Of a DNA stretch of 64,000 nt, positions 1 to 38,452 are shown one piece after another. The notes below the pieces were generated by a model. It saw only the letters and a list, made by a program, of their open reading frames with translations, made no database searches and was not told where the DNA came from. Position 1 is the stretch's first letter, and each line of letters starts with the position of its first letter. The stretch covers positions 3,782,001 to 3,846,000 of the forward strand of contig NC_063013.1 of the NCBI RefSeq assembly GCF_020509005.1. The letters run 5' to 3'. The DNA comes from Fulvia fulva. Lineage: Eukaryota > Ascomycota > Dothideomycetes > Mycosphaerellales > Mycosphaerellaceae. The translations under genes and the position numbers were made by a program.

Positions 1-1623
1 GACACGGTAAAGGTAGAGACTAGAATACCTTAGGGATCTACTCTCTCCCCTATCCTGTTTCTAATATTTATGTCTAATCTAATCCCCCTACTTACCTCTC
101 CGTAAACCTTAGTATCGGGGTTCGTAGACGATATAAACATTCTAGCCTAGTTAGACTCGATAGAAGAGAACTGTCGCCTCCTCGAAGATAGGCATAAGAA
201 ATGCGAGGAGTAGGTAAAGAAGTATAGTGCCTAGTTCGCCCCTAAAAAGTACCAACTTATACACTTTAGTAAAGCGAGAACATACTATAACATAAAGGCG
301 GCGGTAAGAATCTAAGGCTACGAGACAAAGCTATTAGCGGAGCTACGAGTACTAGGGATCTAGCTCGACCCGAAGCTAAGCTAGAATATATAGGTTAAGA
401 AAGCCTAGAGTCGAGCACAAGTTAACGAAGCCTCGATAAAGAGACTTACGGCATCTATATAGGGAGCAACATTCGACAAGGCAAGAGTAATGTATAAGGC
501 GATCGTTAGACTAGCTATACTATACGGGGTACAGATTTGGGGAACAGGAGGCGTAGGCAAGCCGATCCCGAAACGGATAGAGCAACCCCTAAACAGGATA
601 TAGGTAGGTAACCTACGTAGGGTACTAGGCGTATATAAGACAACGTTAATAAGCACGGTAGAAATAGAGACAGGAACACTACTAATCGGCCAGTATATCC
701 GGGGAATAAGAATTCAATACGCGGCAAGGACGACAGGTTACCTAGTATAAACTACGATCTAGGAGGCAAAGAATAAGATAGAAAGCTACTACCGGAGAGG
801 GGCCGGACATAGGACAAGCCAAAAAGAGGATGACCTTACTACCTTTACGGCTATATAGACAAGTACCGAATGGCTAGTACGAAAAGAGGAGGAGCGTAGG
901 ACTCGCTAGGCCGGCGGGAGCAAGGCTAAGACCTAAAGCCTAGCGGAATAGATAGCGAGCTACCTATAGGAGCAGGACTAGAAAAAGAAGCCCCCTAAGA
1001 CAATAGGCCCGATAGCGCTCCGAGCTTTCTAGAGACACAATTACTAGCTATATAGGGACCTAACAAGGGCCGAGGCAAGTATAGCGATCCAAATCAGGTC
1101 CGAATATATTAGGTTAAGGGCCTACCTGTTTAGAAGACGCGTACTAGACATCTATAGCCTAGCCTACTAGTATAGCTACCTATCGTAAAACCTAGAATAT
1201 ATACTATAACGATACCCGTAGTAGGCGAGAGGTAGGGGAAATTAGAGGCACTAAGTAGGAAGGAGAGACTATAAGTCAATTATTAGGGACAAAGGTAACA
1301 TTTGCCGAATCTCTTAGTGAAAACTATAGTAGGGATACCTCTAGTAGTTTAGCCTCGCTAGCGAGACGGAGGAGTAGATAGATAAGAGGCGGAAGCTAGG
1401 GGGGGTATAGATAGGGTAGTCATTAGGGCAGGCCTATAATACTAGCGTACCCCTAATAAGGGAAATCTAAGACGATAACTAGGGGGGAAGGACAGGCGGG
1501 AAGGAGGAGGGGTTTTTACTAATACGATTTCCCCTCTATATATACGAAAACAAGATAGTATAGCTATATAGGCTAAAGGATACTATAATAGCTTAATAAA
1601 ATATCTATCTATCTATCTATATA
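1..1623 (+). mobile_element. RIP-mutated LINE, family B, 3' portion (cut by window start)
   Basis: This is the 3' part of a non-LTR retrotransposon read on the plus strand. If RIP-type stops are read through, the start encodes the end of a LINE reverse transcriptase: a GIPQGSTLSPILF-like block near 25-60, then a GFVDDINIL block near 118-145 (the catalytic motif, with FVDD in place of the usual FADD), then a long C-terminal region up to roughly 1400. The 3' UTR follows and the element ends in a (TATC)n tail at about 1601-1621, as in the other LINE-B copy at 24220-28146. The 5' part lies outside the window. TAG/TAA stops are frequent, so it is dead. It probably sits in the gypsy-3 element, because a pogo element inserted at its 3' junction is followed by gypsy-3 sequence at 15709. 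Confidence 0.85.
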
Positions 1624-1692
1624 ACGTACTTTACTACCGAGCGGGCTATACTACCGAGCGGGCCACTTTTGCTAAGAACTATACTACTTCTA
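1624..1692 (+). repeat. pogo terminal inverted repeat, transposase 3' side
   Basis: Pairs with 15638-15706 in inverted orientation. It contains two direct copies of CTACCGAGCGGGC spaced by a few bases, a layout expected of subterminal transposase-binding sites. Confidence 0.85.
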
Positions 1693-1756
1693 CTTTAATT
1701 ACGACGGTATCTTAATACGACGACATCCTATAGAATCGTTACTAGGAGGACAATTC

Positions 1757-2275
1757 TGTTATAGTCTGCCTATAGAGTATATAGAAGGTAGGGACAGAAG
1801 AGCCTTAGAGTGCTCAGAAGTCGTTAAGAAGTGACAGTCTAGCTTAGTATATAAGCGCTAAGAATTATATGCCCCGTAACATTTACTACGGGACCTAGCC
1901 CTCTAAATTCACCCCTCTACTAAACCTTAACAGATTTACTTCGGCTCGTAACTATATAACTTACGGCACTCCCGCGAGTACCCGCGACTACGCTAGACCC
2001 TAGAAGAAGCACGTAGAAGACTCGGAACGTAGGGTAGGTTAGAATAAGGCTTTGAGCAAAGCTACTAAGCGCGGCTTCGTACGTATTAGCCCTATTAATA
2101 CGGGGATACGTACTCGCGAGGGTCGCGTATAAGTATCTAGCCTTCCCTAGGCCTCTCTTACTTTCTTCGTCTTTCGTTTTATATAGTAATTATACTATAC
2201 CCTTTATATCTATACTTCGTAACTATATTCTCGCTTTTACTTATATATCTTATAGGCTAGGCTCTCGCCCTAACA
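1757..2275 (+). repeat. gypsy-1 5' LTR
   Basis: 519 bp, TGTTA to TAACA, similar throughout to the other gypsy-1 LTRs in the window. Preceded by the AATTC target duplication. Confidence 0.9.
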
Positions 2276-2339
2276 TTACGAAAGACTAATAAACCGCTAA
2301 CTACTCGAGTCACCCTTATAGGTAACTATACTACCGATA

Positions 2340-2796
2340 GAGGTGTTAACCTCGACAACTAAGACACTCTATTCCACTTTAGTAAGTAGGCTAATATCCC
2401 CTTCTCGAACGCCGGTACCTTCGGTTCCTAGGTAAACGCTAACCCCGACACCGCCTACGCTCTTATTAACCGTACCGTCTCCTCTTTCCGCGAGACCGCC
2501 TAGTAGGTCGAGTAAGTAAACAACTAAGTAATATACCTTCAAGGTATTATAAACACCTTCTAGAACCTCGTCCCGTACGCCGACGATAACCGCCGCTAGT
2601 ACTTCTCTAAGAAGGTTAACGACCTAGACGAGTTCGACGGTAATAAGAGCAAGTTTAAGGCATTTAAGACATAGCTTACTATCAAGCTATTAGCTAATAC
2701 CGACTACTTTCCGTAAGAGAAGGACAAGGTTACGTACGTCTTCTCCCTCCTTCGGGGAGACGCCGCGGCTTAGGTATAATACTATATTAATAACGC
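2340..2796 (+). pseudogene. gypsy-1 gag remnant, N-terminal part
   Basis: Reads in one frame through RIP stops as a Gag N-terminus, for example a ZNF-free capsid-like stretch with QNLVPYADDNRR and FSKKVNDLDEFDG. It is interrupted at 2797 by the composite LINE (TSD near 2785-2796) and resumes at 8091. The same region is seen uninterrupted at about 39000-39500 in the 38453-44743 copy. Confidence 0.75.
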
Positions 2797-3876
2797 GGTC
2801 GACGACGAGAATCACCTATACGTAGTGTCGGCTACGAACCTCTCGTCTAGCTACGAGAGAGCTAAGTATTCTTACGCTAGAGCGTCGTAGGCGCGACGGG
2901 CGCGTAACGTAGGCGAAGCCGCGGCGAATAGAGGACTACTAGTAAAACGGGTATAAAAACTATCCGACGAGCGTATACTCGTGTCGGGAGCGAGTCCCTC
3001 TTCTTTCTACGTATAAGAAGGGCGCGGAACCGTGGCCTATACGCTCGATAGGACACCTCTAGTATAAGTATAGAATTTTTACCTCCGGAGACCGTAAACC
3101 GAGCGGGCTAAGCGACGAACATTAGACGAGCGGACTATAGAATAATAACTAAGCGGACTATATAACGGCGTCGAGCGGACTACGAAACAATCTAGTGTTT
3201 GCTAGCGGGCAATACGGTAGGTAGGTAGACACGCGACGAAGCCTATAAGGGCCTATTAAATACCCGGTATAGGAACGAGGGTTTTGCCTAAGGCACTACC
3301 TGTCCCGCTACACAACGTACCTAGTCTAATATAGTAGATTGCGACGAGGAAAAGACGATAGCCTAAGTAAGGAAAAGACGGCTATTAGGACGGGGAAAAG
3401 ACGTACAATACAAGTGGATTAGTTATATAATCGGGGAGGATTAAGGGTAGGGTAATAAGGAACTTTATATTAGTTAGTAGGTAGAAACGTAAGGAGTACG
3501 CTACCCGGCGTAGTATGTGCCCCGAGCAAACCTACGAGGTATAGACGGCCGCTTTCTAGAGATAGGCTACGGTAACGCGAAGGGCGTTAAAACCTAGGGC
3601 GTAGTGTATACTAGTAGCGACGGCTAACACTGTCTATATAGCCCGAGAGGACGGATACGTATATCGGTCAATAGAGAGCACTAAAGGGCTTAGGCCTATA
3701 GAGGTGGATATTGGCTTAAGGAGCAAATAGGGAGGGAGGGCGTAGAGGGAAGCTTTTGCTCCGGGCTAACCTCTCGAAACGAGGCTACACGGTAGTGCTA
3801 GATAAGTAGGAAAGCGCGGTTAAGACTTGTTACCTTATCTCGTAGCTAGCTTACTAAATACGATTCCTTCCTTACT
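2797..3876 (+). repeat. LINE-associated 5' module, copy 1
   Basis: About 1,080 bp, matching 27066-28146 on the other strand with mostly RIP-type differences. Both copies begin at the same base within 1 nt (GGTCGACGACGAG...) directly next to a TSD and end at the same base (...CCTTCCTTACT) at the LINE junction. The frame starting at 2797 has many TAG/TAA but I saw no TGA, compatible with a former reading frame of about 360 codons; since RIP removes TG, that is weak evidence. I recognise no protein domain. Not seen elsewhere in the window. Confidence 0.8.
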
Positions 3877-4610
3877 ACGACATACCTAAGGAGTTTGACC
3901 TAACTAACTAGGGTCACCTACGCGCTCTCTAAGAGGACAACCCGGTCACTCTTAACTCTCTAATCCAGAAGGCGACTTGGCTCTATAGGAAATGGCTAGA
4001 AGGCAAGAAGGCCTCGGCGCTAATAGTATAGCTATAAGACGCGAAAGCGGCGGATCTAGCGATAGAACAAGGCCTAGTCTAGTAATATAGCCTCAAGATA
4101 GTAGAAAAGCACTCCTTATCCTTTCGTGTCCTCTAATGCTTCAAATGCTAACAGTATAGACACCAAACCTATACGTGTATAAATAAGTAGGCCTACTCGA
4201 ACTATATAGGAGACTATATGTCTAGGGACTATATATCGACTACGAGACGGTACGCGAACTATCCGGGGCACTACCTATCGTATAGTACGGAATGCCTATA
4301 GCGGAAACTAGCGAAAAACAAGGCAATCACAAACAGAACCGTCGCCCTAAGATTCTACGGCGACCGTAAGGCTAGCCTATACCGGAACTAACTAGCGGCG
4401 GTCGGGTATAAGCGCCCTAGGGCCGAGAACGATATAAAGGATACGTAACCTAGGGCGTACGGGAGGCTACGTGCTCTACTAGCTACGGCGAGGGAATCTA
4501 ACTAGGCCCGGCTCCCCTTTAGTATATAGCCGATAGGCGTAGACTAGGACGTATAGGGCAGTAGGATATAGGACGATATAGAGGAAATGATTGTCGATAC
4601 CGATAACTAG
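3877..4610 (+). pseudogene. LINE-A ORF1 remnant, C-terminal part, in composite LINE
   Basis: Corresponds to residues about 183-425 of the intact ORF1 at 50973-52250, starting at the DMPKEFDP motif. The three zinc-knuckle segments are recognisable around 4130-4300, with Cys codons changed to Tyr and Trp/Gln codons to TAG. The former stop is at 4608-4610. The N-terminal 182 residues are replaced by the module. Confidence 0.8.
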
Positions 4611-7600
4611 CCTCGACACGCTTAGCATTATCTAGTATAACGTTAACTATAGTAAGGATATAGTCTAGAACCATTTCCTATATAAGGCGAACCCGCGCGT
4701 CTACTACGTCCTTATAATCTAGGAGCTATAGATTAACCCGCACTATAAGAGACTAACGACCTATAAGTTACTAGGCTATACGATATACCTACGAGGCGAC
4801 GGTAGACCCCGTACGTGCTTCTATGTTAGCAAGGACATACTAGAATCCGACTAGGAGGTAGTGTACTACGTAGACGAAGAAGGCGGGGGCGATATTACCT
4901 CCCTCTACGTAGGTAGCACCTAGATACACAACCTATATATACAACCGCTAGCCTCGAGGTCTAGCCGCGACCTAGGGGTCTATAGACACCTAGACAGTGC
5001 GCTTAAGAGACAAGGGTGCTATATCGTAGTAGGAGACTTCAATATATACTACCCTTCCTAGGAAAGCCTTATATAGCCGCACCCTATAGCCGACGAAGTA
5101 CTCGACTTGATAGCGAGCAACGCAATTGCCCTTAATACCCCGAAGGACCTAGGCACCTAGAAGAGAGGGGGACTCTAAGGCACGATCGACCTCTCCTAGA
5201 TCTTAGATAGCTACTACTATACGGTAACCTACTATAGGATCGAACATAAACTCGAGGCGTCGTCAGACTATATACTAGTCAGGACCTCTATTACGATATA
5301 GATACAACGTATACTAGCGGGAACCCCTAAGCTAAACTAGGGAAAGGCCTACTAGGCCAACATCTAGGCGTACCTCGATAACTCTAAGAGGCTAGTCCAG
5401 ATCGCGCAGTAGCAATATAATAGTAAAGACGAGATAGACGAAGTAGTCTAGGGGTTGATAGACGAAATAAGAAAAGCGACCTTACTTCACGTTCCGCTTG
5501 CCTAACTAACGATATAGTCCAAACTATACTAGACGCCGGAGTGCACTACGGTAGTAAGAGAAGTAAGGAGAGCCAGCCGGGTATAGACGAGCAGCTATAG
5601 CGAGGAGGCCTAGAACGTATATAGGGAGGCATGCTAACAGAAGAAAGCTATAATACGAAGGGAGAAAGTAGTAGGCTAGAGGGCTATAGTAGAAGAAATC
5701 GCCGGCAAGCTAGAGAGGATGTAGAAGCTAGCGAAATGGGCCCGACAGGACCCTATACAGGGCCCCTCCTTCTCTATCCTAGCGCTACAATCGCCTAGTG
5801 GCCCGGTTAGCGACCCCGAGGCTAAGGCGCGTCTACTAGCTAGCAAGTTCTTCCCGCCCCTAGTCGAGGCTAATCTAAGCGACATAAATAGCTCAACTCC
5901 CCTAGCCCCTAGTATCGCGGTCTAATAGGAGGTGTCCGAGGGAGAAGTTGCCGCTATACTAAGGAAGTTGCCGGCGAAGAAAGCCCCGGGGCCGGATAGG
6001 ATCCTAAACGAGCTACTAAAGAAGTATAGAGATCAACTAGCCCTAGTAGTTATAGCGACCTTTAACGCCTGCCTATAGACCGGGTACCACCCGATAGCTT
6101 TTAAACAATCGACGATAGTAGTCCTACGTAAGCCGTAGAAGGAAGACTATACGTAGGTAAAGTCGTACCGCCTAATTACGCTCCTTAACACTCTTAGGAA
6201 GGCGCTTAAGAAGCTGGTTATAACGAGACTCTCCGAGGCGGTAGAGGAACACTCCCTACTCCCGGACACCTAGATAGGTACGCGCCTATAGCGATCGACG
6301 CTATCCGCGATAGAACTTATCACCTCTTAGGTAAAGGCTATCTAGTATAAGAATAGGGACAAGGTGGCTTCCTTACTTAGCCTAGATATATTAGGAGCCT
6401 TCGACTACGTGTTATACCCGCGGCTACTCTATATCCTAAGGTCGAAAGGACTCCCTAAGTGGCTTATTAACTTCGTACGGTCCTACCTCTAAAACCGTAG
6501 TACGTCGATCCTAGTCGGCTAGTATAGAAGCCTATTTTAAGCAGTCTATACTAGAATCCCGTAAGGCTTAACGCTAGCACCTATTCTATTCCTCTTCTTT
6601 ATAGCGACGCTACTCCTAGCCCTAGAATCCCAGAACACCGCTACGAGCGGCTTCGTAGACGACACAAACATCCTAGCGTAGTCTTCCTCGACTAAGGAGA
6701 ACTATAGGCTACTAGAAGAGAAGCACAAGATCTACGAGGACTAGGCTAGGAGGCACGGGGCTCGGTTTGCCCTAGAAAAGTACAATCTAATACACTTTAC
6801 GCGCCGGCTACGGTTCTATAATATATAAGCTTCTATCTAGATATAGGGGCATACGACTAACCCGGTAAATCAGCTTAGGATCCTCGGACTATAGGTAGAC
6901 CCGGCGCTACGGTAGAGGAAGTACGTATAGGCAATATTACGGAAAGCTAAACAGAATATAGTATCATACTAGAGGCTCACTACGTCTATATAGGGGGCGG
7001 ACTTCCGGTAGTCACGACTTCTATATACGGCTATTATACGGCCAGTCCTTACCTATAGTAGCCAAGTGTGGTCCTTAGGCGAGAGGGCCTACCTATCGAA
7101 GGGACTCGTCGCGCCGCTAGCGAAGATCTAAAACTAATGCCTAAGGAAGGTCACCGGGGTATATAAGTCGACACTAACGAGGATGCTTAAGCACGAGACC
7201 GCTATACCGCCGATCGACCTATATATCTAGGGACTACGGACCTCCTACTTAGGCAAGTCGGCATAGTACCTAGTATAGAAGGCTATCGCTAGTATAGTCG
7301 TAAGGGCCCGCGAATTAGTACTAGCGTATAGGGGCATTCGACCCGGAAACGAGCCGAACTACCGGGTAAGGGACGAATAGCTAGTAATATAATAGGAAGG
7401 TAAGAAATCGTTTGTAGAGCAACTATAGAAAGAGAGGTAGAACAACTAGGTTGTAGGGTATAGTAGACGCCCTTAGCTAGCGGGACAACCTAAGGAATAG
7501 TTAGCTACAAAATCCGCGGTCAAGTACCCCCCGAAGCTTATCTACTACCGCCTTAAGAGGGTATAGAGTAGTATAGCAACCTAACTACGAAGCGAACACA

Positions 7601-7914
7601 TCGGCCTCTAGGGGTACCTATTATAGAGGAAGGTTCTAGGATATACGAATACTAGCTGCCCCTACGGCTATCGCTCCTAGAACGTACGGCACGTACTCCT
7701 CGTCTGTCCGAGGTGGTCGCTAGGAAGGGGGGAGTAGATAGTAAAGGCGAGGAACCGGACGATTAGGGCACTTCTTAATAACGCTAAGGACCTACGGCGC
7801 ATTACGAACTAGATACTAGAGAAGGGCTAGCTAGAATAGTACCGCCTAGTAGGAACAGTATAGGAAGAGAGGACACGACGTAGCGCGACGAGACCGGCTA
7901 GGAGCGGGGGCTAA
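4597..7914 (+). pseudogene. LINE-A ORF2 remnant (endonuclease-reverse transcriptase)
   Basis: Collinear over its whole length with the intact ORF2 at 47669-50986. The former start ATG reads ATA, and dozens of Gln and Trp codons are now TAG/TAA. The endonuclease block (GDFN-like) is near 5035, the RT block with GFVDDTNILA near 6650-6680, the former stop at 7912-7914. This is a dead copy that shows by comparison that RIP here changes almost only CpA/TpG. Confidence 0.85.
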
Positions 7915-8090
7915 CGGGGTAGTAATATAGACTACGTACGTTTAGAGGGAAAGCTAAACTAGATAAGGAGTAGTCGGGGGCGGGAAGGGTTTTCACCTAT
8001 TCGGGTTTCCCTTTGTATATAACAATAGATATATACCTATATAGGCCGGATAGGGTCCTAGAATAGGGGAATAACAAATCTATCTATCTA

Positions 8091-8850
8091 TATTAATAAC
8101 GCTACGTAGACTATCGGCTGCCCGGACGTCCTCACCTTAATATAGGACCTCCGTACTACCTTTAGTGATCTAGACCGTAGAGCTACCGCCTAGAACGCTA
8201 TCTATAACCTCCTCTAGAAGAACAAGAGCTTCGCCGAGTACCTCGCGGCCTTTAACCGCGACATCGGGTTTACCGGCTATAACGAAGAGACTAAGAAGAG
8301 TACTCTCCGCCGTAGCTTATTAGTAGAGCTTCTTCGAGCCCTCGAGGACAAGGACGTCGGTACTATAAGCTTCCGTAAGCTCGTCGAGACCTACTAGCGC
8401 CTCGACTCTAAGATAAAACACACCGCCTCTCTCCTCGCTTCCCGTTCTTAAGGTCGTTAGCCTCGTAGTCCCGGAAGCTACTTCGCTACTCTACTAGGCG
8501 CCGCCGCTCCTACGGCTCTCCCTCCCGTCTCTATAGGTGACGCTATAGATCTTAGCGCTAGTACCGCCGTCCCTCGAGTCTAGGGCCTCGTTAACGGTAA
8601 GCTTACTCCCGAAGAGAAGCTTCGACGTCGCTAGGCCGGACTCTATACCTACTACGGCGGTCTAGGCTATATTATAGTTAACTATCCGTAGCTCGCTACC
8701 CGTAACGCCCGTAACCCGGTTCGCGGCGCTATCGGCGCTATCGAGGCTACTCCTACTACTCCCGCTAAGTAGGAAAAAGCCTAGGTCTTCCTTATCGACG
8801 CGAGGAAGACTAAGAATAACGTTTACCGAAAGTGAAGAGAGGAAGGAAGT
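8091..8850 (+). pseudogene. gypsy-1 gag remnant, C-terminal part
   Basis: Continues the Gag frame after the LINE insertion: a retrotransposon capsid region (TLIQDLRTTFSDLDRRATAQ, then FAEYLAAFNRDIGF and LLVELLRALED) and a CCHC knuckle near 8640-8690 whose Cys codons partly became Tyr (TYYGGLGYIIVNYP in the mutated form). Neighbouring pol starts near 8860. The same Gag is seen uninterrupted at 39000-40220. Confidence 0.8.
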
Positions 8851-11800
8851 TGAGGATCAATATAGTATAGCTAGACCTATACGACGAGACGGGTAAGGAC
8901 TACGCTTATAAACCGTTCGTTACGAATATAAATATCGGCTTAAAGAAACTCTCTTCTTCCAATCTTACTCTTATAGACACTAGCGTACTAGGCGAGTCTT
9001 TTATAGACTATAAACTCGCGACCTCTCTTAACCTCGAACCCTAGGAACTAAAGTATCCTCGTACCCTTAAACTCTTTAACGGCACGGAGACTACTACTAG
9101 TAAGATTACTTATATTATATACACGTTAATTACCCTCGGAGGCAAGCGTATGTCGATTACTAGCTTCCTTACGTCCCTACCGTATTAGAAGTTTATCCTC
9201 GGCCTCCCCTAGTTTAGACGACACCGACCTATTATCGACTAGACTTCCCTTACTATTAGCTTCCCTCTAGAAGTTCCTCCGGTACCTCCGCTTTCTCCGC
9301 CGCCTTAGCGCGGTCCTAAGTATACTAAGATCTTCTAGGTGAACGCCGCTACCTTTACTACTACTACTAAGTATCCTAAAGCTTAAGTCTTCGCCGCCTC
9401 TCTCCGCGATATCGACATCGCCCTCGAGAAGCTCGATAAGAAGCGTACACCTACCGACCCTACTACGAAGGTCCCTCCTTAGGTACACTAGATCCTCTAC
9501 GTATTCGATACTAAAGCCGTAGACGAGCTGCCTCCTTATCGCCCTTACGACTATAAGATTAAGCTAGAAGAAGGTATAGAGACACCGTTCGGACCGCTAT
9601 ATTCTATGTCCCGAGAAGAGCTTATCGTCCTTAAGAGATACCTCGAAGAGAACCTAAAGAAGGGGTTTATTCGAGCGAGCCGTTCTAGCGCTAGTAGTCC
9701 CGTTATATTCGTTAAGAAGCCCGGCGGTAGTCTACGCTTCTACGTAGACTACCGAGGCTTAAACGCTATTATAAAGAAGAACCGCTACCTAATACCGTTG
9801 ATTTAGGAGACGCTCGAGCGCCTCTCTAAGGCTAAGTACTTTACTAAGCTCGATATTATCGCTACGTTTAACAAGTTACGAATAGTAGAAGGACACGAGT
9901 ATCTTATAGCCTTCCGTACTCGCTACGGGCTATTCGAGTCGCTCGTTATGCCCTTCGGCGTTTATAACGGGCCTAGTACCTTCTAGAACTTTATTAACGA
10001 TATCCTTTAAGAGTTCCTCGATTAGTTCTACACTACCTATATCGACGACATCCTAGTCTATAGCGAGACTAAGAAGGAGTACCGCGAGTACGTCTATAAG
10101 GTCCTTTAGAAGCTCGTAGACGCCGGCTTATAGCTCGATATCGACAAGTGCGAGTTTGAGAAGACCGAAGTCAAGTTCCTTAGTTTGATCATTACCGTAG
10201 ACGGCATTAAGACAGACTAAGAGAAGATCGACGCTATCGTCGAATAGGATACTCCTACGTACGTTAAGGAGGTCTAGGGTTTCCTAGGCTTTACTAACTT
10301 CTACCGCCGCTTTATCTACGTATTCTCGAGCGTAGTACGCCCTTTAACGAAGCTTACGCGTAAGGGTAAGAAGTTTGCCTAGACCGACGAATACTAGGAG
10401 GCCTTTGACTTACTTAAAGCGAAGTTTATTAAGAACCCGCTCCTATAGCACTTCGATTTCGAACTAGAGACCCGTATAGAGACTAACGTATCCGACGGCG
10501 TAGTAGGCGGTATCCTACTATAACGCCGCTCGCCTAAATCTCCCTAGTTACCTATCGCCTTCCTCTCTAAGAAGATGACCGCTACGGAGTATAACTACGA
10601 GATCTACGATAAGGAGCTTCTCGCTATCGTTAAAGCTTTTAAAGAGTAGCGCCCCGAGCTCGAAGGCTCTACTATACCCGTCTAAGTAAGCTCCGACTAT
10701 AAGAACCTCGTCTACTTTATAAAGAGCAAGCTACTTAATCGTCGCTAGGCCCGCTAGAGCGAGTTCCTCTCCCGGTTTAACTTTATAATCTCGTATACGC
10801 CCGGTAAGGCCAACTTGATAGCCGACGCCCTTACCCGCCGCCCTAGTAACTCTCTAGTTGATCGAAGAGGGGGCTAGTAAATCGTAGAGTAACAAGTTAT
10901 TAAAGAGTATAACCTCTCTTCCGAGCTTCGAGAGTACCTATCGAACGGCTAGCCTACGCTCGCCGCTTCCTTTACTACTCTCGTACTCGCTCCTACCTAC
11001 CTTAACGAGAGTAATAATGAATCCGAGCCTAAAGAATACGCCTCGGACGCTAAGGACTTGAACGATAATAAAGAGGGCTTAGTAACGACCGAAGGCTTAT
11101 CCGAATTAGACTTCAAGGGGTTTAATAATAAGGAGTAACCTAAAGGCATTATAGTACGAGTACGAACAGCGTACGATACCGATATAGACGCCTAAGAGTT
11201 AGTTTAGGCCCTTAAATCTAGCGCGAGGACATTCCCGGGCTTCTCGCTATCCGAGTACGAGCTCTAGGAAGGTGTCGTCTACTTCCGTAAGAAGCTTTAC
11301 GTACCGTAGCCCGAAGGCTCTAATATCCGAGCTAAGATTCTTCAAATTGTCTACGACTCCGCCTCTAGGGGTCACCTAGGCGTAGCTAAGACCTATAAGC
11401 TCCTCGCTAGGTATTACTAGTAGCCGTATTCCTAGAAGGACGTCCGCCGCTACGTACTAAACTACGCTACTTACCGAAGAGCTAACGCTAACCGCTACCG
11501 CCCCTACGGTCTCCTATACCCTCTCCCGGCTCCTAATCGTACGTAGAAGCATATTACGATAGACTTTATTACCGATCTTCCTTACGGTAAGACCTTTAGC
11601 GGCGTAAAAGCAAAGGCCCTTCTAGTGATCGTAGACCGTTACTCTAAGGACCGGTATATAATCCCGTACTAGAGTATGACCGTAAAGGAGACTACTCGCT
11701 TATTCTACGAATTCGTCTAGCGCTTTTAAGGCCTCCCGGATAGCATCACCTCTAATAGGGGCACCTAGTTTATCTCGTACTTCTAGAAACGTCTATATAC

Positions 11801-12780
11801 TATCCTAGGCATTAAGTATAACCTCTCGACTAGTTTTTAGCTATAGACCGACGGCTAGACCGAAATTACGAACGCTATCCTCGAGTAGGTCCTTCGTTAC
11901 TTCGTCGACTACTACTAGAAGGATTGGCCTTAGTATATCCCTACGGTAGAGTTCGCTACTCGTAACTAGGACTCGGAGACTACTAGCTACTCTCCCTTCT
12001 ATACTACGAGAGGTTACTACCCTCGTATAGGTATAGAACTAGAAGAACCTCTCCCGCCTACCGAAGACGTAAACGAGCAAGTAGTAGACGAGTTCGCTAC
12101 TATACTCTTATAGATCTATAAAGAAGTTCACGACGAGATAGTATACGTATAAGCAATCTACGAGGATCAAGCTAATCGTCGTCGCTAGCTAGCTCCCGAC
12201 TACTAAGTAGGCGATATAGTCTACCTTAACTCTAAGAACATTAAGACGGACCGCCCCTCTAAGAAGCTAAACTAGAAGAACCTAGGTCCTTTTAAGATTA
12301 CCGAGCGTATTAGTTTATACGCCTACCGTCTAGCTCTTCCTACGAACATAAAGATCTACGACGTCTTCTATCCCGTACGCCTTCGGCCGTCGGCTAAGGA
12401 CCTATTCCCGAACTAAAACTAAGACATACTAGGTCCTCCCGATAAAGTAGAAGTCGACGAGCCTATTAACCTACCTTCTAACGACTATACCGTCCGTAAG
12501 ATCCGGGGAATCCGCGTAGAGCCTAACGACGTTAAAGGACTACCGCCGATTAAGTATAAAGTCGAATAGTAAGGTTGCCCTAAGTAGGATACCTTATAGG
12601 AACCTATCTAATATATCATCTTTAATCGTTAAGTAATCGAAGAATACTACGCCCGCGTAGACGGCCTAGAAGTTAATATCGGTAGGCTCTTCTAATCTAA
12701 GCTCTTCGACGGGGTTTACTAATAGTATATCGACTATAATATTAGGCCTAGGCCTAGTACTAAAGCTGAACATCCTCGAT
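8850..12780 (+). pseudogene. gypsy-1 pol remnant (protease, RT, RNase H, integrase, chromodomain-like end)
   Basis: Read through RIP stops the order is: protease-like segment near 8970-9010 (TLIDTS-like); reverse transcriptase from about 9600 with [17 protein letters not shown] at 9712-9765, [14 protein letters not shown] near 9945 and [10 protein letters not shown] near 10030-10065; RNase H from about 10480 (ETNVSDGVVGGIL, then SYTPGKANLIADALTRR near 10790-10840); integrase with a zinc-binding region near 11360-11480 and a catalytic core from 11560; and at 12500-12620 a chromodomain-like tail (YKVEWQG...TWEP pattern). The order is that of Ty3/gypsy chromoviruses. It has no long open frame; the longest open piece (9606-9806) lies in the RT. 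Confidence 0.85.
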
Positions 12781-12832
12781 ATATAGAACTACTACGGCTT
12801 CGTAGGAACTTAGCTTTATTCGGGGGGCCTAC

Positions 12833-13351
12833 TATTATAGTCTCCCTATAGAGTGTATAGAAGGTAGGGACAGAAGAGCCTTAGAGTGCTTAGAAGTCGT
12901 TAAGAAGTGACAGTCTAGCTTAGTATATAAGCGCTAAGAATTATATGCCCCGTAACATTTACTACGGGACCTAGCCCTCTAAATTCACCCCTCTACTAAA
13001 CCTTAACAGATTTACTTCGGCTCGTAACTATATAACTTACGGCACTCCCGCGAGTACCCGCGACTACGCTAGACCCTAGAAGAAGCACGTAGAAGACTCG
13101 GAACGTAGGGTAGGTTAGAATAAGGCTTTGAGCAAAGCTACTAAGCGCGGCTTCGTACGTATTAGCCCTATTAATACGGGGATACGTACTCGCGAGGGTC
13201 GCGTATAAATATCTAGCCTTCCCTAGACCTCTCTTACTTTCTTCGTCTTTCGTTTTGTATAGCAATTGTACTACACCCTTTACATCTGTACTTCGTACCT
13301 ATATTCTCGCTTTCACCCTTATATCTTATAGGCTAGGCTCTCGCCCTAATA
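12833..13351 (+). repeat. gypsy-1 LTR, middle of three
   Basis: 519 bp, ends TATTA...TAATA (RIP-changed TGTTA...TAACA). It follows the pol remnant as a 3' LTR should, but the next base (13352) starts a second copy of pol 3' sequence. Confidence 0.9.
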
Positions 13352-16427: not shown

Positions 16428-16605
16428 GATAGATAGATAGATTTGTCATTCCCCTGTTCTAGGACCCTATCCGGCCTATATAGGTATATATCTATTGTTA
16501 TATACAAAGGGAAACCCAAATAGGTGAAAACCCTTTCCGCCCCCGACTACTCCTTATCTAGTTTAGCTTTCCCTCTAAACGTACGTAGTCTATGTTACTA
16601 CCCCG

Positions 16606-19600
16606 TTAGCCCCCGCTCCTAGCCGGTCTCGTCGCGCTACGTCGTGTCCTCTCTTCCTATACTGTTCCTACTAGGCGGTACTGTTCTAGCTAGCCCTTCT
16701 CTAGTATCTAGTTCGTAATGCGCCGTAGGTCCTTAGCGTTGTTAAGAAGTGCCCTAATCGTCCGGTTCCTCGCCTTTACTATCTACTCCCCCCTTCCTAG
16801 CGACCACCTCGGACAGACGAGGAGTACGTGCCGTACGTTCTAGGAGCGATAGCCGTAGGGGCAGCTAGTATTTGTGTATCCTAGAACCTTCCTCTATAAT
16901 AGGTACCCCTAGAGGCCGATATGTTCGCTTCGTAGTTAGGTTGCTATACTACTCTATGCCCTCGTAAGGCGGTAGTAGATAAGCTTCGGGGGGTGCTTAA
17001 CCGCGGATTTTGTAGCTAACTATTCCTTAGGTTGTCCCGCTAGCTAAGGGCGTCTACTATACCCTACAACCTAGTTGTTCTACCTCTCTTTCTATAGTTA
17101 CTCTATAAACGATTTCTTACCTTCCTATTATATTACTAGCTATTCGTCCCTTACCCGGTAGTTCGGCTCGTTTCCGGGTCGAATGCCCCTATACGCTAGT
17201 ACTAATTCGCGGGCCCTTACGACTACACTAGCGATGACCTTCTATACTAGGTACTATGCCGACTTGCCTAAGTAGGAGGTCCGTAGTCCCTAGATATATA
17301 GGTCGATCGGCGGTATAGCGGTCTCGTACTTAAGTATCCTCGTTAGTATCGACTTATATGCCCCGGTGACCTTCCTTAGGCATTAGTTTTAGATCTTCGC
17401 TAGCGGCGCGACGAGTCCCTTCGATAGGTAGGCCCTCTCGCCTAAGGACTATACTTGGCTACTATAGGTAAGGACTGGCCGTATAATAGCCGTATATAGA
17501 AGTCGTAACTACCGGAAGTCCGCCCCCTATATAGACGTAGTGAGCCTCTAGTATAATACTATATTCTGTTTAGCTTTCCGTAATATTGCCTATACGTACT
17601 TCCTCTACCGTAGCGCCGGGTCTACCTATAGTCCGAGGATCCTAAGCTAATTTACCGGGTTAGTCGTATGCCCCTATATCTAGATAGAAGCTTGTATATT
17701 ATAGAACCGTGGCCGGCGCGTAAAGTGTATTAGATTGTACTTTTCTAGGGCAAACCGAGCCCCGTGCCTCCTAGCCTAGTCCTCGTAGATCTTGTGCTTC
17801 TCTTCTAGTAGCCTACAGTTCTCCTTAGTCGAGGAAGACTACGCTAGGATGTTTATGTCGTCTACGAAGCCGCTCGTAGCGGTGTTCTGGGATTCTAGGG
17901 CTAGGAGCAGCGTCGCTATAAAGAAGAGGAACAGAATAGGTACTAGCGTTAAGCCTTACGGGATTCTAGTATAGACTACTTGAAATGGGCTTCTATACTA
18001 GCCGACTAGGATCGACGTACTACGGTTTTGGAGGTAGGACCGTACGAAGTTAATAAGCTACTTAGGGAGTCCTTTCGACCTTAGGATATAGAGTAGCCGC
18101 GGGTATAACACGTAGTCGAAGGCTCCCGATATGTCTAGGCTAAGTAAGGAAGCCACCTTGTCCCTATTCTTATACTAGATAGCCTTTACCTAAGAGGTGA
18201 TAAGTTCTATCGCGGATAGCGTCGATCGCTATAGGCGCGCACCTATCTAGGTGTCCGGGAGTAGGGAGTGTTCCTCTACCGCCTCGGAGAGTCTCGTTAT
18301 AACTAGCTTCTTAAGCGCCTTCCTAAGAGTGTTAAGGAGCGTAATTAGGCGGTACGACTTTACCTACGTATAGTCTTCCTTCTACGGCTTACGTAGGACC
18401 ACTATCGTCGATTGTTTAAAAGCTATCGGGTGGTACCCGGTCTATAGGCAGGCGTTAAAGATCGCTATAACTACTAGGGCTAGTTAATCTCTACACTTCT
18501 TTAGTAGCTCGTTTAGGATCCTATCCGGCCCCGGGGCTTTCTTCGCCGGTAACTTCCTTAGCATAGCGGCAACTTCTCCCTCGGACACCTCCTATTAGAC
18601 CGCGATGCTAGGGGCTAGGGGAGTAGAGCTGTTTATATCGCTTAGATCAGCCTCGACTAGGGGCGGGAAGAACTTGCTAGCTAGTAGACGCGCCTTGGCC
18701 TCGGGGTCGCTAACCGGGCCACTAGGCGATTATAGCGCTAGGATAGAGAAGGAGGGGCCCTGTATAGGGTCCTGTCGGGCCCATTTCGCTAGCTTCTACA
18801 TCCTCTCTAGCTTGCCGGCGATTTCTTCTACTATAGCCCTCTAGCCGACTACTTTCTCCCTTCGTATTATAGCTTTCTTCTATTAGTATGCCTCTCTATA
18901 TACGTTCTAGGCCTCCTCGCTATAGCTGCTCGTCTATACCCGGCGGGCTCTCCTTGCTTCTCTTACTACCGTAGTGCACTCCGGCGTCTAGTATAGTTTG
19001 GACTATGTCGTTAGTTAGGTAAGCGGAACGTGAAGTAAGGTCGCTTTTCTTATTTCGTCTATTAACCCCTAGACTGCTTCGTCTATCTCGTCTTTACTAT
19101 TATATTGCTACTACGCGATCTGGACTAGCCTCTTAGAGTTATCGAGGTACGCCTAGATATTAGCCTAGTAGGCCTTTCCCTAGTTTGGCTTAGGGGTTCC
19201 CGCTAGTATACGTTATATCTATATCGTAATAGAGGTCCTGACTAGTATATAGTCTAACGACGCCTCGAGTTTATGTTCGATCCTATAGTAGGTTACCGTA
19301 TAGTAGTAGCTATCTAAGATCTAGGAGAGGTCGATCGTGCCTTAGAGTCCCCCTCTCTTCTAGGTACCTAGGTCCTTCGGGATATTAAGGGCAATTACGT
19401 TGCTCGCTATCAAGTCGAGTACTTCGTCGGCTATAGGGTACGGCTACATAAGGCTTTCCTAGGAAGGGTGGTGTATATTAAAGTCTCCTACTACGATGTG
19501 GCACCCTTGTCTCTTAAGCGTACTATCTAGGTGTCTATAGACCCCTAGGTCGCGGCTAGACCTCGAGGCTAGCGGTTATATATATAGGTTGTGTATCTAG

Positions 19601-19923
19601 GTGCTACCTACGTAGAGGGAGGTAATATCGCCCCCGCCTTCTTTGTCTACGTAGTATACTACCTCCTAGTCGGATTCTAGTATGTCCTTACTAATATAGA
19701 AGCACGTACGGGGTCTACCGTCGCCTCGTAGGCATGTCGTATAGCCTAGTGACTTGTAGGTCGTTAGTCTCTTATAGTACGGGTTAATCTATAGCTCCTA
19801 GATTATAAGGACGTAGTGGACGCGCGGGTCCGCCTCGTATAGGAAATAGTTCTAGACTATATCCTTACTATAGTTAACGTTATACTAGATAATGCTAAGC
19901 GTATCGAGGCTAGTTATCGGCAT
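16606..19923 (-). pseudogene. LINE-A ORF2 remnant
   Basis: Same length and order as the intact ORF2 at 47669-50986 with a constant coordinate offset of 31,063 over most of the gene. The ATG at 19921-19923 is preserved, but many TAG/TAA interrupt the frame. The RT FVDD block is near 17845-17875. Confidence 0.85.
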
Positions 19924-21187
19924 CGACAATCATTTCCTCTATATCGTCCTATGTCCTACTGCCCTATACGTCCTAGTCTACGCCTATTAGCTATATACTA
20001 AAGGGGAGCCGGGCCTAGTTAGATTCCCTCGCCGTAGCTAGTAGAGCACGTGGCCTCCCGTACGCCCTAGGTTACGTATCCTTTATATCGTTCTCGGCCC
20101 TAGGGCGCTTATACCCGACCGCCGCTAGTTAGTTCCGGTATAGGCTAGCCTTACGGTCGCCGTAGAATCTTAGGGCGACGGTTCTGTTTGTGATTGCCTT
20201 GTTTTTCGCTAGTTTCCGCTATAGGCATTCCGCACTATACGATAGGTAGTGCCCCGGACAGTTCGCGTACCGTCTCGTAGTCGATATATAGTCCCTAGAT
20301 ATATAGTCTCCTATATAGTTCGAGTAGGCCTACTTGTTTGTGCACGTGTAGGTTTAGTGTCTATACTGTTAGCATTTGAAGTATTAGAGGACACGAAAGG
20401 ATAAGGAGTGCTTTTCTACTATCTTGAGGCTATATTACTAGACTAGGCCTTGTTCTATCGCTAGATCCGCCGCTTTCGCGTCTTATAGCTATACTATTAG
20501 CGCCGAGGCCTTCTTGCCTTCTAGCCATTTCCTATAGAGCCAAGTCGCCTTCTGGATTAGAGAGTTAAGAGTGACCGGGTTGTCCTCTTAGAGAGCGCGT
20601 AGGTGACCCTAGTTAGTTAGGTCAAACTACTTAGGTATATCGTAGACTAGGATCGTAAATTGTTTCGTTAAGACCTTCGCTAATACCGTAACCTTAGATG
20701 CCTACTATAGCTATGCCTCTAGGTACCTCCTAGTAGTAGCAGAGCTAGTATAGATCTATAGAGTGCCGTTAGACTATTAGTTCACTACGACCACCCCTAG
20801 TTAGTTAATTCGTTAGGCGAGCTCCTTGTTCGATAGCTTCGCAACTTTGGCCTAGTCTTCCTTTACTATAATACGGATCGTAACTATATCGTACGTTAGG
20901 CGGGGGCCTAGTATCGATGCCGCGACCGATGCCTAGCTATAGGGGTGTTGATTCCGGGTGGCCTTACTAATCGCCTAGGACGTCGTCCTCATTTCTTATT
21001 GCCCTCGGTAATACGACAGTATAAGCGCCGTACGTAGCTAAGTGATCATTACCTATAGAGACCGGTAAGGGAGCTAATCGTTAGTTTCTATACTTTTTAC
21101 GTCCTCTATAAGTTGCTACTAGTTGTCTTAGGGGGGCTTCGCCTATAGGGCCGTAGGCGCCGTTAGTACCGTAGCCTAGGCTACTAT
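19910..21187 (-). pseudogene. LINE-A ORF1 remnant
   Basis: Collinear with the intact ORF1 at 50973-52250. The start ATG now reads ATA, and the zinc-knuckle Cys codons and several Trp/Gln codons are mutated. Confidence 0.83.
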
Positions 21188-21386
21188 TGCCTAGGAGTTG
21201 CCTAATGTAGCTAGGCACCTCCGCGGCGTTTAGAGCTAAAGAAACAGGGTGAAGAGAGCTTCAAGCTATCTAGATTGAATAAGGTAGAACTCCCTTAGTC
21301 CTAGGGGTAGTGGCCTGCTTTATATATCGTTAGAATGGCCTTAATAAGAGCTTTCGAATATGTCTTGTTTTGGCGTAGAGATCGAT

Positions 21387-21432
21387 AAGCCGACGCGTCG
21401 AGTAGTAATTCAAGTTTGATAATAAGAATATC
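21387..21432 (-). other. Foreign 5' segment of the LINE-A insertion (gypsy-like)
   Basis: 46 bp between the end of LINE-A homology and the TSD. On the minus strand it reads like a gypsy RT/RNase H linker (ILIIKLELLLDAS), homologous in position to the gypsy-3 sequence at the insertion site (16380-16413) but not identical to it. Confidence 0.6.
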
Positions 21433-24101: not shown

Positions 24102-24219
24102 CCTATAAACGACAAGATATCGGTAATATTCGCGGGTATAGGCCAATTCTTAACGTATTCAATCTTAGCTAGGTCTATCTTAATGCCCTTATTTGTAATA
24201 ATAACACCTAGATAAGTAG
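24102..24219 (-). pseudogene. gypsy-3 pol remnant, short RT piece
   Basis: Minus-strand LGVIITNKGIKIDLAKI and WPIPANITDILSF motifs of gypsy RT, between the young LTR element and the LINE-B insertion. It joins 21433-21585 on one side and 28147 on the other. Confidence 0.8.
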
Positions 24220-24559
24220 ATAGATAGATATTTTATTAAGCTGTTGTAGTGCCCTTTGGCCTATATAGCTATACTATCTTGTTTTCGTATATATAGAGGG
24301 GAAACCGTGTTAGTAAAAACCCCTCCTCCTTCCCGCCTGTCTTTTCCTCCTAGTTGTTGTCTTAATTTTCCCTTATTAGGGGTACGCTAGTGTTATAGGC
24401 CTACCCTAATAACTACCCTATCTACTACCCCCTAGCTTCCGCCTCTTGTCTATCTACTCCTCCGTCTCGCTAGCGAGGCTAAACTACTAGAGGTATCCCT
24501 ACTATAGTATCTACCGAGAGATTTGGCGAATGTTACCTTTGTCCCTAATAATTGACTTA

Positions 24560-27065
24560 TAGTCTCTCCTTCCCGCTTAGTGCCTCTAATTTCCCCTGCC
24601 TCTCGCCTACTACGGGCATCGTAGTAGCATATGTTCTAGGTTTTGCGATAGGTAGCTATACTAGTAGGCTAGGCTATAGATGTCTAGTACGCGTCTTCTA
24701 AATAGGTAGGCCCTTAACCTAATATATTCGGACCTGATTTGGATCGCTATGCTTGCCTCGGCCCTTATTAGGTCCCTATATAGCTAGTAATTGTGTCTCT
24801 GGAAAGCTCGGAGCGCTATCGGGCCTATTGTCTTAGGGGGCTTCTTTTTCTAGTCCTACTCCTATAGGTAGCTCGCTATCTATTCCGCTAGGCTTTAGGT
24901 CTTAGCCTTGCTCCCGCCGGCCTAGCGAGTCCTACGCTCCTCCTCTTTTCGTGCTAGCCATTCGGTGCTTGTCTATATAGCCGTAAAGGTAGTAAGGTCA
25001 TCCTCTTTTTAGCTTGTCCTATGTCCGGCCCCTCTCCGGTAGTGGCTTTCTATCTTATTCTTTGCCTCCTAGATCGTAGTTTGTACTAGGTAACCTGTCG
25101 TCCTTGCCGCGTATTAAATTCTTATTCCCCGGATATACTGGCCGATTAGTAGTGTTCCTATCTCTATTTCTACCGTGCTTATTAACGTTGTCTTATATAC
25201 GCCTAGTACCCTACGTAGGTTGCCTACCTATATCCTGTTTAGGGGTTGCTCTATCCGTTTCGGGATCGGCTTGCCTACGCCTCCTATTCCCTAAATCTGT
25301 GCCCCGTATAGTATAGCTAGTCTAACGATCGCCTTATATATTACTCTTGCCTTATCGAATGTTGCCCCCTATATAGATGCCGTAAGTCTCTTTATCGAGG
25401 CTTCGTTGACTTGTGCTCGACTCTAGGCTTTCTTAACCTATATATTCTAGCTTAGCTTCGGGTCGAGCTAGATCCCTAGTACTCGTAGCTCCGCTAATAG
25501 CTTTGTCTCGTAGCCTTAGATTCTTACCGCCGCCTTTATATTATAGTATGTTCTCGCTTTACTAAAGTATATAAGTTAGTACTTTTTAGGGGCGAACTAG
25601 GTACTATACTTCTTTACCTACTCCTCGCATTTCTTATGCCTATCTTCGAGGAGGCGACAGTTCTCTTCTATCGAGTCTAACTAGGCTAGGATGTTTATAT
25701 CGTCTACGAACCCCGATACTAAGGTTTACGGAGAGGTAAGTAGGGGGATTAGATTAGACATAAATATTAGAAACAGGATAGGGGAGAGAGTAGATCCCTA
25801 AGGTATTCTAGTCTCTACCTTTACCGGGTCGGACGTATACCTTCCTAGGACTAGGTATGTCGTCCGTTCCTAGAGAAAGGAGTAGACGAACGTCTTTGCC
25901 TACTAGGGGATACCTTTCTACTATAGGATGTGTATTAGCCTTTAGTATAAGACGTTGTCGAAGGCTTCTACGATGTCGAGGGATAGTAAGGACGCCGCTC
26001 GGTTCCTACCGTAGTGCTAGAGGGTCTGAATTTGCTCCGTAATTAGCTCTATTACTATTAGTATCGATCGCTAGCTTCTTCCCCCTATCTATATTACTAG
26101 GAGTACGTAGTTGTCCTCGGCTAGCTACGTAAGTCTCTAGGCTACTATCTTTTCTAGGACCTTCCCTATCGTGTTTAGAAGTACGATTGGTCTATACGAC
26201 TTGGGCTAAGTATAGTCCTCTTTCTATAGCTTACGTAGTACTACTGTTATAGACTCTCTATACGGCTTCGGGTGATACCCTAGCCGTAGGCACGCGGTAA
26301 ATAGGTTTGCTAGGCTCGGCGCGATCTCTTCTCTATACTCTTTTAGTAGTATGTTTAGTATCCTATCTAGGCCTAGAGCTCTCCGTCCTTTTAGCTTACT
26401 TATAACTCCTATTACTATATTAGAGCTAACCGCCTAATCTATGTCTAGGGGTTCCGGGTATATACTCGGGTCGATATCCGTAAGGTCTGCCTCTACTTAC
26501 GTCGAAAAGAAATGGTCGGCTAATGCTTTTGCCTTGCCCCGGGGCGTAGCCTAGGTAATCCCTTCGCGGTCTACGATTAGGGGGAAGTAAGGGGTTTGCT
26601 ACTCTTTAGGTAGTCGTGCCTATTTAGTAAGTCTCTACATCTATTCCGGGTTTTCTATAACGAGCCCGATCGTCGCTCTCTAGTCCTATAGCTTGTCGCG
26701 TCTTATCTATACCTTCTTCTCTTATGTCGCGCGACAGTATTGCTCCTACGTCTCTTAGGTATACTCCTTCGTCTACTGTCGCCTTGCCCTTCTAGCCTCC
26801 CTTACCTTCGTAGAGCATTTAGGGGTCTAGAAGGCCTTCTACTATATTAAGGGCCGGAGTAACGGCGTATATTGTTCCGCTACTTACTATATAACCGAGG
26901 TAATCTGTTCCGCTACTTGATCTAGCTAAGCTGTCGTCTCGAGTTCTCTATACTATAGTAGGTTCGCTATTAGGAAGCCTCTTATATCGTCCTAGCGTAC
27001 CTTCTTCTAGTTACGGCGTAGTTCGCTTACTAGCTCCTCTGTCGCCTTTACCCCTAGCGTCGTTT
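24560..27065 (-). pseudogene. LINE-B ORF2 remnant (reverse transcriptase and C-terminus)
   Basis: Minus-strand frame with RIP stops, beginning with TEELVSELRRN and DDIRGFLIANLLQYRELE (linker), then RT blocks: GRRAPGLDRIPN near 26365-26400, KSYRPIVLLNTIGK near 26165-26205, SLLSLDIVEAFDNV near 25950-25990, and GIPQGSTLSPILF followed by GFVDDINILA near 25690-25800. A long C-terminal region follows. The LINE family differs from LINE-A but is clearly related; it has no endonuclease in this copy. The plus-strand frames at 25104-25316 and 25857-26042 are shadows. Confidence 0.82.
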
Positions 27066-28146
27066 AGTAAGGAAGGAATCGTATTTAGTAAGCTAGCTAC
27101 GAGATAAGGTAACAATTCTTAACCGCGCTTTCCTACTTATCTAGTACTACCGTGTAGCCTCGTTTCGAGAGGTTAGCCCGGAGCAAAAGCTTCCCTCTAC
27201 GCCCTCCCTCCCTATTTGCTCCTTAAGCTAATATCCACCTCTATAGGCCTAAGCCCTTTAGTACTCTCTATTGACCGATATACGTATCCGTCCTCTCGGG
27301 CTATATAGATAGTATTAGCCGTCGCTACTAGTATACACTACGCCCTAGGTTTTGACGCCCTTCGCGTTACCGTAGCCTATCTCTAGAAAGCGGCCGTCTA
27401 TGCTTCGTAGGTTTGCTCGGGGCACACACTACGCCGGGTAGCGTACTCCTTACGTTTCTACCTACTAACTAATATAAAGTTCCTTATTACCCTGCCCTCG
27501 ATCCTCCCCGATTATAGAACTAATCTACTTATATTATACGTCTTTTCCCCGTCCTAATAGCCGTCTTTTCCTTACTTAGGCTATCGTCCTTTCCTCGTCG
27601 CAATCTACTATATTAGACTAGGTACGTTGTGTAGCGGGACAGGTAGTGCCTTAGGCAAAACCCTCGTTCCTATACCGGGTATTTAATAGGCCCTTATAGG
27701 CTTCGTCGCGTGTCTACCTACCTACCGTATTGCCCGCTAGCAAACACTAGATTGTTTCGTAGTCCGCTCGACGCCGTTATATAGTCCGCTTAGTTATTAT
27801 TCTATAGTCCGCTCGTCTAATGTTCGTCGCTTAGCCCGCTCGGTTTACGGTCTCCGGAGGTAAAAATTCTATACTTATACTAGAGGTGTCCTATCGAGCG
27901 TATAGGCCACGGTTCCGCGCCCTTCTTATACGTAGAAAGAAGAGGGACTCGCTCCCGACACGAGTACACGCTCGTCGGATAGTTTTTATACCCGTTTTGC
28001 TAGTAGTCCTCTATTCGCCGCGGCTTCGCCTACGTTACGCGCCCGTCGCGCCTACGACGCTCTAGCGTAAGAATACTTGGCTCTCTCGTAGCTAGACGAG
28101 AGGTTCGTAGCCGACACTACGTATAGGTGATTCTCGTCGTCGACCT
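27066..28146 (-). repeat. LINE-associated 5' module, copy 2
   Basis: About 1,081 bp, matching 2797-3876. Its 5' end abuts the TSD and its 3' end joins LINE-B. A series of GAGCGGGCTA/GAGCGGACTA-like motifs lies near its first third (27735-27845). Confidence 0.8.
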
Positions 28147-33726: not shown

Positions 33727-34246
33727 TGTTAGGGCGAGAGCCTGGCCTATAAGATATAAGGGTGAAAGCGAGAATGTAGGTACGAAGTGTAGATACAAAA
33801 GGGTATAGTATGATTGCTACACAAAACGAAAGACGTAGAAAGTAAGAGAGGCCTAGGGAAGGCTAGATATTTATACGCGACCCTCGCGAGTACGTGTCCC
33901 CGTATTAATAGGGCTAACCCGTGTAAAGCCGCGCTTAGTAGCTTTGCTTAAAACCTTATTCTAACCTACCCTACGTTCCGAGTCTTCTACGTGCTTCTTC
34001 TAGGGTCTAGCGTAGTCGCGGGTGCTCGCGGGAGTGCCGTAAGTCATATAGTTACGAGCCGAAGTAAATCTATTAAGGTTTAGTAGAGGGGTGAATTTGG
34101 AGGGCTAGGTCCCGTAGTGAATATTACGGGGTATATAATTCTTAGCGCTTATATACTAAGCTAGACTATTACTTCTTAACGACTTCTAAGTACTCTAAGG
34201 CTCTTCTGTCCCTACCTTCTATATACTCTATAGGGAGACTATAATA
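33727..34246 (-). repeat. gypsy-1 outer copy, 3' LTR
   Basis: 520 bp, TGTTA on the left, TAATA on the right (RIP-changed TAACA). Preceded by the CCTAG duplication. Confidence 0.9.
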
Positions 34247-34289
34247 GTAGCCCCCCCGAACAAAGCTAAGTTCCTACGAAGCCGTAGTA

Positions 34290-38230: not shown

Positions 38231-38239
38231 TTCCTTCCT

Positions 38240-38447
38240 CTCTTTACTTTCGGTAAACGTTATTCTTAGTCTTCCTCGCGTCGATAAGGAATACCTAGGC
38301 TTTTTCCTACTTAGCGGGAGTAGTAGGAGTAGGCTCGATAGCGCCGATAGCGCCGCGAACCGGGTTACGGGCGTTACGGGTAGCGAGCTACGGATAGTTA
38401 ACTATAATATAGCCTAGACCGCCGTAGTAGGTATAGAGTCCGGCCTA
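38240..38447 (-). pseudogene. gypsy-1 outer copy, gag C-terminus
   Basis: Zinc-knuckle end of Gag (AGLYTYYGGLGYI-like, Cys partly Tyr), cut by the inner gypsy-1; the rest of Gag is at 44749-45760. The GTAAC at 38448-38452 is the TSD of the inner element. Confidence 0.78.
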
Positions 38448-38452
38448 GTAAC

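Follow-up and report, generated by a model that had tools for sequence, protein, structure and literature searches.

A fixed-end 1.08-kb module joined to truncated LINEs of several families in Cladosporium fulvum forms composites that resemble MINE elements in architecture

A 64,000-nt stretch of Chr2 (3782001–3846000) of the tomato leaf-mould fungus Fulvia fulva (Cladosporium fulvum), referred to here as the window, raises the question of how one and the same sequence came to stand directly in front of two different 5′-truncated LINEs. On the forward strand, a module at 2797–3874 is followed by a 5′-truncated, RIP-mutated LINE-A (3875–8078, 97% identity to the LINE-A at 20645–16437) and by a (TATC)n tail at 8079–8087, whose border with the flanking repeat is ambiguous by a few bases. 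On the reverse strand, a module at 27068–28145 with 98% identity to 2797–3874 precedes a 5′-truncated, RIP-mutated LINE-B and its tail (24224–27067). Both module copies are themselves RIP-mutated (TpA/ApT 2.44 and 2.34). A preliminary description had placed the modules at 2797–3876 (+) and 28145–27066 (−); the common first base and the existence of a common end hold, but its exact end does not, as the last two bases are LINE. Because LINE sequence begins directly past CCTTCCTT[G/A], the fixed end is 3874 (+) and 27068 (−), which gives a module of approximately 1,078 bp with the ends GGTCGACG ... CCTTCCTTA. Elsewhere in the window, 47490–64000 is a tandem repeat with a period of 6.72 kb that bears full-length LINE-A copies (54209–64000 against 47490–57282, 99.96% identity), and self-comparison reveals further repeated segments of 4.7–5.3 kb at 8088–13351, 33729–38448 and 39479–44743, which are 96–98% identical.

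The module, the truncated LINE and the tail had been described as lying within one target-site duplication (TSD), and both window composites carry such 15-bp TSDs. The repeat is exact for the LINE-A composite (2782–2796 and 8088–8102, + strand), while the two copies around the LINE-B composite (5′ copy 28146–28160, 3′ copy 24205–24219, − strand) differ by a single G-to-A mismatch of RIP type. When the flanks of the LINE-A composite are joined at one TSD copy, they match two paralogous empty sites, at 39394–39593 (+) and 45372–45173 (−), over 200 of 200 bases with no gap and 96.5% identity. Given these two ungapped empty sites, module, LINE and tail came as a single insertion. Across the genome, of 25 fully fetched elements that end in a simple tail, 20 have a TSD, which is an exact repeat in 11 and differs by one or two transitions in 9; a further element outside this count (L022) has a 15-bp TSD. 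In L013, a composite lies inside another module and splits it into pieces with an 11-bp overlap.

Patterns for the module ends and interior, allowed up to two mismatches, were searched against the 67.17-Mb assembly (14 contigs). They match 577 5′ ends, 572 internal sites and 623 3′ ends, so that the predicted recurrence with fixed ends extends to about 600 genome copies; read-backwards controls for the three patterns gave 1, 0 and 0 matches, and the chance expectation for the end patterns in the window is 0. Module length is 1,076–1,080 bp in 40 of 40 scored matches among the matches listed. The alignment is ungapped in 27 of 27 fully fetched copies, a sample biased to best matches (22 loci chosen on best matches, three further copies inside them and the two window copies), with 1,974 differing alignment cells of RIP type relative to an un-RIPped module copy and 115 of other types. 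Among eight modules drawn from the 5′-end listing, seven are 1,077–1,080 bp long (L136 has 5 gap positions) and one, in L137, is broken off after 351 bp. The earlier statement that the module is always complete needs correction: there are interrupted modules in L013 and L137 and truncated modules in L031, L138 and L152, each of which has a second module joined in front.

LINE 3′ ends number 1,410 for family A, 648 for B and 281 for C, and module 3′ ends equal approximately 27% of these. Pairing zero-mismatch modules with A, B and C tails over the first 4.65 Mb of Chr1, we found that 9 of 99 A tails, 13 of 44 B tails and 5 of 18 C tails lie within 8 kb behind a same-strand module as its nearest tail, and that 16 of 44 modules have no such tail within that distance. 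Some of these tail-less modules are explained by nested insertions, as in L020, and other LINE families would also account for modules without an A, B or C tail nearby. The L020 insertion is un-RIPped, lies in LINE-A behind the module (224–4892 of the downstream stretch, approximately 4.67 kb), is bounded by identical 113-bp direct repeats and is probably an LTR retrotransposon.

Junctions were read from the first 100 listed zero-mismatch module 3′ ends, all on Chr1, together with 150 bases behind each. Ninety-four lead into LINE or LINE-like sequence, 1 into a second module and 5 into sequence with no partner match by blastn or tblastx (L036, L046, L054, L062 and L085). The LINE junctions divide into 75 in families A, B or C (41 B, 23 A and 11 C under strict assignment) and 19 in other LINE-like sequence, and the 75 strict rows contain 42 distinct break points (21 in B, 15 in A, 6 in C). 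A first assignment of 44 B, 23 A and 17 C, with one module and 15 unassigned, was set aside, as nine of its rows match their reference at only 67–79%; these were re-counted as other LINE-like sequence. Ten of the 15 initially unplaced junctions are LINEs, identified by blastn (L045, L113), through LINE-like stretches elsewhere (L065, L121) or by tblastx (six). Variable junctions, first noted in two LINEs, are seen in three sequence-defined families, which are 64–79% alike across most aligned stretches, and in further LINE relatives. L011 contains an un-RIPped LINE-B frame with a match to RVT_1. By eye, the differing LINE-like starts behind the modules of L045 and L054 share a similar stretch, CCTARAATTACGGAG ... 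GCCTA ... TTAGG, which is perhaps a common 5′ UTR hairpin.

Could the module simply be the normal 5′ region of these LINEs, the truncated forms being internal deletions or splice products? In two composites (L034 and L113) it does precede a full-length LINE-A, ending 34–39 nt before LINE-A position 18–19. Full-length LINE-A copies nevertheless occur without it: three copies of 4,947 bp in the window, at 16442–21388, 47505–52451 and 54225–59171 (all −, the last two in tandem repeat with each other), begin without a module, and the 5′ ends of eight LINE-A copies in the sequence examined fall within a few tens of bases of each other. The commonest junctions sit in the RT domain, the break is preceded by a pyrimidine, where an AG splice acceptor would have its G, and one module serves LINE families of such limited similarity. 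We regard this explanation as extremely improbable; it is LINE-A for which the module-less full-length copies refute it. Unlike the composites, these three copies showed no TSD where one was sought.

The break points follow a rule. Among distinct, cleanly mapped points, with module, weakly mapped and reference-edge rows dropped, the LINE is broken between two pyrimidines (Y^Y) at all 34 of the strictly mapped ones, against a frequency of 0.196 in the references (P about 9e-25), and at 36 of 38 under the first family assignment; a purine precedes the Y^Y at 32 of 34 and 34 of 38 points, respectively. The base after CCTTCCTT[G/A] is C in 83, T in 16 and G in 1 of the 100 junctions. Breaks are also clustered, with 25 of 84 lying at most 3 bases from the leucine codon of RT motif A (SLDI.GAFD), at reference positions 3251 in LINE-A and 1629 in LINE-B. 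This hotspot takes 6 of 23 A junctions, 13 of 41 B, 0 of 11 C and six of the nine divergent rows; it is common to two sequence-defined families, LINE-A and LINE-B, and to divergent relatives, not to three families. Since the LINE-B hotspot group spans subfamilies that differ by transversions, joining has recurred at this point. A pause hairpin upstream of the breaks, as published for MINE, was not seen: 50-nt folding percentiles average 0.50 at 15 LINE-A points and 0.52 at 14 LINE-B points. Splicing as the joining step was rejected, there being no AG ahead of the break.

The data require that a defined RNA end and LINE sequence became connected either ahead of a single target-primed event or in the course of it. 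The explanation that we prefer, with moderate confidence, is that the LINE RT jumps from LINE RNA to the fixed 3′ end of one module RNA. Jumping RTs often add bases at joins. Clean joins, defined by six bases free of mismatches other than those of RIP type, make up 72 of 84 junctions and 67 of 75 in the strict set, and they speak against a jump, as do the hairpin-less breaks and the failure to find a solo source gene. Ligation of module RNA to LINE RNA before reverse transcription would yield clean joins, and an RNA-cutting enzyme could account just as well for the strictness of the Y^Y rule and for the shared hotspot; several LINE-B subfamilies are broken at one identical nucleotide, and other families at the homologous codon. 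Clean joins, Y^Y rule and hotspot keep ligation in play as a possible, if rather unlikely, alternative. A single chimeric template, however, should often be truncated inside the module, yet few modules lack their 5′ end, and the same type of RT also leaves plain truncated LINEs, such as the module-less LINE-B of L009 with its 17-bp TSD.

Several loci record more than one switch. L031 reads module(1–1078)–module(371–1077)–LINE-A, and L152 reads complete module–module(165–1079)–LINE-B; in L138, a complete module is followed by a module from 165 on, with LINE-A found behind approximately 850 unread bases. Ligation can claim these cases in so far as module fragments, at 165 and 371, would likewise serve as its 3′ partner. 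They nonetheless support RT jumping, because modules truncated at 371 or 165 bear the 3′ end of another module at that point. In L034 and L113, it is as if the RT ran past the LINE 5′ end before reaching the module. RT jumping is favored for three reasons: the scarcity of truncated modules (577 5′ ends against 623 3′ ends), the module-on-module loci and these run-past cases. The re-counted families, which reduce the hotspot to two sequence-defined families plus divergent relatives, left the weighing of jump against ligation unchanged; the other observations gain from the empty sites and from the stricter tally of Y^Y breaks.

Under this preferred explanation, the module would be a DNA copy of one RNA of about 1.08 kb whose 5′ end is fixed at GGTCGACG... 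and whose 3′ end, likewise fixed and lacking poly(A), is ...CCTTCCTTG, perhaps followed by C. LINE proteins would begin target-primed reverse transcription on a LINE RNA, and the RT would quit this template at R-Y^Y (a break between paired pyrimidines that follow a purine), resume synthesis at the 3′ end of the module RNA and copy this RNA up to its 5′ end, so that the whole product would integrate as a single insertion with a single TSD. An RT stalled within the module could shift to the 3′ end of another module RNA, and several LINE families would use the same module RNA, also recently. That the joining takes place during reverse transcription, that the module is a separate RNA and why this RNA is the one used are steps that we infer. 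As a whole, the interpretation offered in the preliminary description is supported by the fixed-end copies, the TSDs, the variable junctions and the module-less full-length LINE-A.

Some joins are recent. All 40 scored matches to an un-RIPped query module (of 656 candidates) span at least 1–1078 and round to 100% identity. The 3′ junctions of 20 of the best un-RIPped copies all reach LINE-like sequence, although L150 and L156 are only distantly LINE-like and L152 arrives there through its second module. Junction B1158 is shared by five un-RIPped composites and B1468 by three; these lie at different target sites and are identical over their first 125 bases, so that some same-junction composites may multiply as units. 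In L023, module–LINE-A(258–1085)–LINE-B(2997–3385) lie inside one TSD, and the module and LINE-A parts copy a resident element including its RIP mutations (3 of 647 and 1 of 830 differences). This suggests that a LINE-B RT copied the transcript of the resident composite up to the first base of the module, local recombination being the alternative. At Chr1:8826063, 8830730 and 8835401 (L109–L111, L172–L174), three un-RIPped module–LINE-C composites about 4.67 kb apart have identical 5′ flanks, i.e. a composite has been tandemly duplicated.

The B1158 and B1468 groups and the near-exact copy in L023 could be read to mean that composites multiply mainly as units, transcribed from the module start and mobilized in trans by intact LINEs, with new joining rare. 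We consider this very unlikely as the main route: 42 distinct break points in 75 strict joins require much new joining, one break point is common to LINE-B subfamilies that differ by transversions, and recent LINE copies are alike anyway, so that identity over 125 bases is no proof of unit transposition. Unit multiplication and the RT-jump explanation are not mutually exclusive.

What the module RNA could be was approached from its sequence. The longest stop-to-stop frames overlapping the module reach 101 aa, on the minus strand, and the RNA is apparently non-coding. No Rfam family reached its gathering score in the module; a relaxed scan of L011 3500–5000 produced one match in the LINE (E 0.49) and one in the module (E 3.1), both far under that score. 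Folding of 943 of the 1,080 nt of the un-RIPped module gave z +1.89, with 19 of 20 shuffles at least as stable. Telomerase RNA was rejected on a single CTAACC hexamer with no repeat template, and a Pol III gene on one A-box-like match with no B box and three internal TTTT runs. A lower divergence of the module than of the LINE parts (1.17 versus 3.99 and 4.42 transversions per kb) was discarded as a property of best-match copies, since seven modules spread over the listing gave 3.9. A solo source was not found among 20 of the best un-RIPped copies, and a search for a purine after the module 3′ end gave seven places, of which the 4 read are all linked to a LINE or a module. The preliminary description suggested that the module RNA is perhaps a parasite of the LINE machinery, which may or may not be so.

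In architecture, the C. fulvum composite resembles the little-understood MINE/WEIRD chimeras of the rice blast fungus, Magnaporthe, as judged by comparison with published descriptions. Fudal et al. 2005 is reportedly cited in connection with Magnaporthe MINE. The excerpts available from the MINE study of M. grisea/oryzae (PMC2104539) describe 31 MINEs among 33 chimeras, one LINE (MGL), the motif GCC*A/U, hotspots and one tripartite element; WEIRD is 1,113 nt long and expressed as RNA, had no solo copy and no relatives in the genomes then available, and the chimeras were likewise explained by an RT template jump. Set against these excerpts, the C. fulvum composites share a full-length, non-coding 5′ module of about 1.1 kb with fixed ends, a same-orientation LINE truncated at variable points, a single TSD around the whole, hotspots, multipartite cases, a solo module that was not found and a pyrimidine-rich donor motif (R-Y^Y here). 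They differ in number (about 600 copies versus 31) and in partners (several LINE families versus one LINE, plus Mg-SINE), in a fungus of another class. Beyond the MINE paper, as far as its available text goes, are the sharing of one module by several LINE families, module-on-module joining (3 loci), the Y^Y rule and the RT motif-A hotspot shared between families. Three MINE/WEIRD primers from the available part of PMC3978060 gave no match above chance in C. fulvum, primers alone being a weak test.

A second parallel is provided by the U6 snRNA/L1 chimeras of mammals (available text of PMC13174262), in which a full-length small RNA stands in sense orientation before a truncated L1 with a TSD; RNA ligation is discussed there alongside template switching, a point in favor of ligation in C. 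fulvum as well. U6 is, however, a known 106-nt snRNA, whereas the C. fulvum module is 1.08 kb long with no Rfam family at gathering score and, unlike U6, dominates the joins of several LINE families. The Tad1 LINEs of C. fulvum are treated in PMC9453070, PMC10823647 and PMC3510045, the first on the same assembly (Race 5, where Tad1 makes up 16.3% of the genome and 39.2% is RIP-affected). The available text of these three papers contains no mention of module–LINE chimeras, the word 'chimeric' having 0 occurrences in the main text of PMC10823647, and in the accessible part of the open-licence literature we found no account of them for C. fulvum or for any other fungus outside Magnaporthe.

The nature of WEIRD and the choice of a second template by a LINE RT had only 33 chimeras to be studied on in 2007. 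In C. fulvum about 600 copies can be compared; they are joined to several LINE partners and include un-RIPped recent insertions and module-on-module cases, and empty sites are available as well. These composites could separate template jumping from RNA ligation and identify the acceptor RNA. Quite tentatively, and as an idea that we would call speculative, one RNA may generally cap the 5′ ends of LINE intermediates that are broken or stalled. It would be attached at R-Y^Y, in many cases at the conserved motif-A codon of the RT, either through a jump or through ligation, and re-joined if cut short, and the product would then be transcribed from the module's own first base. If this were true, one non-coding RNA would ride several LINE families of one genome simultaneously.
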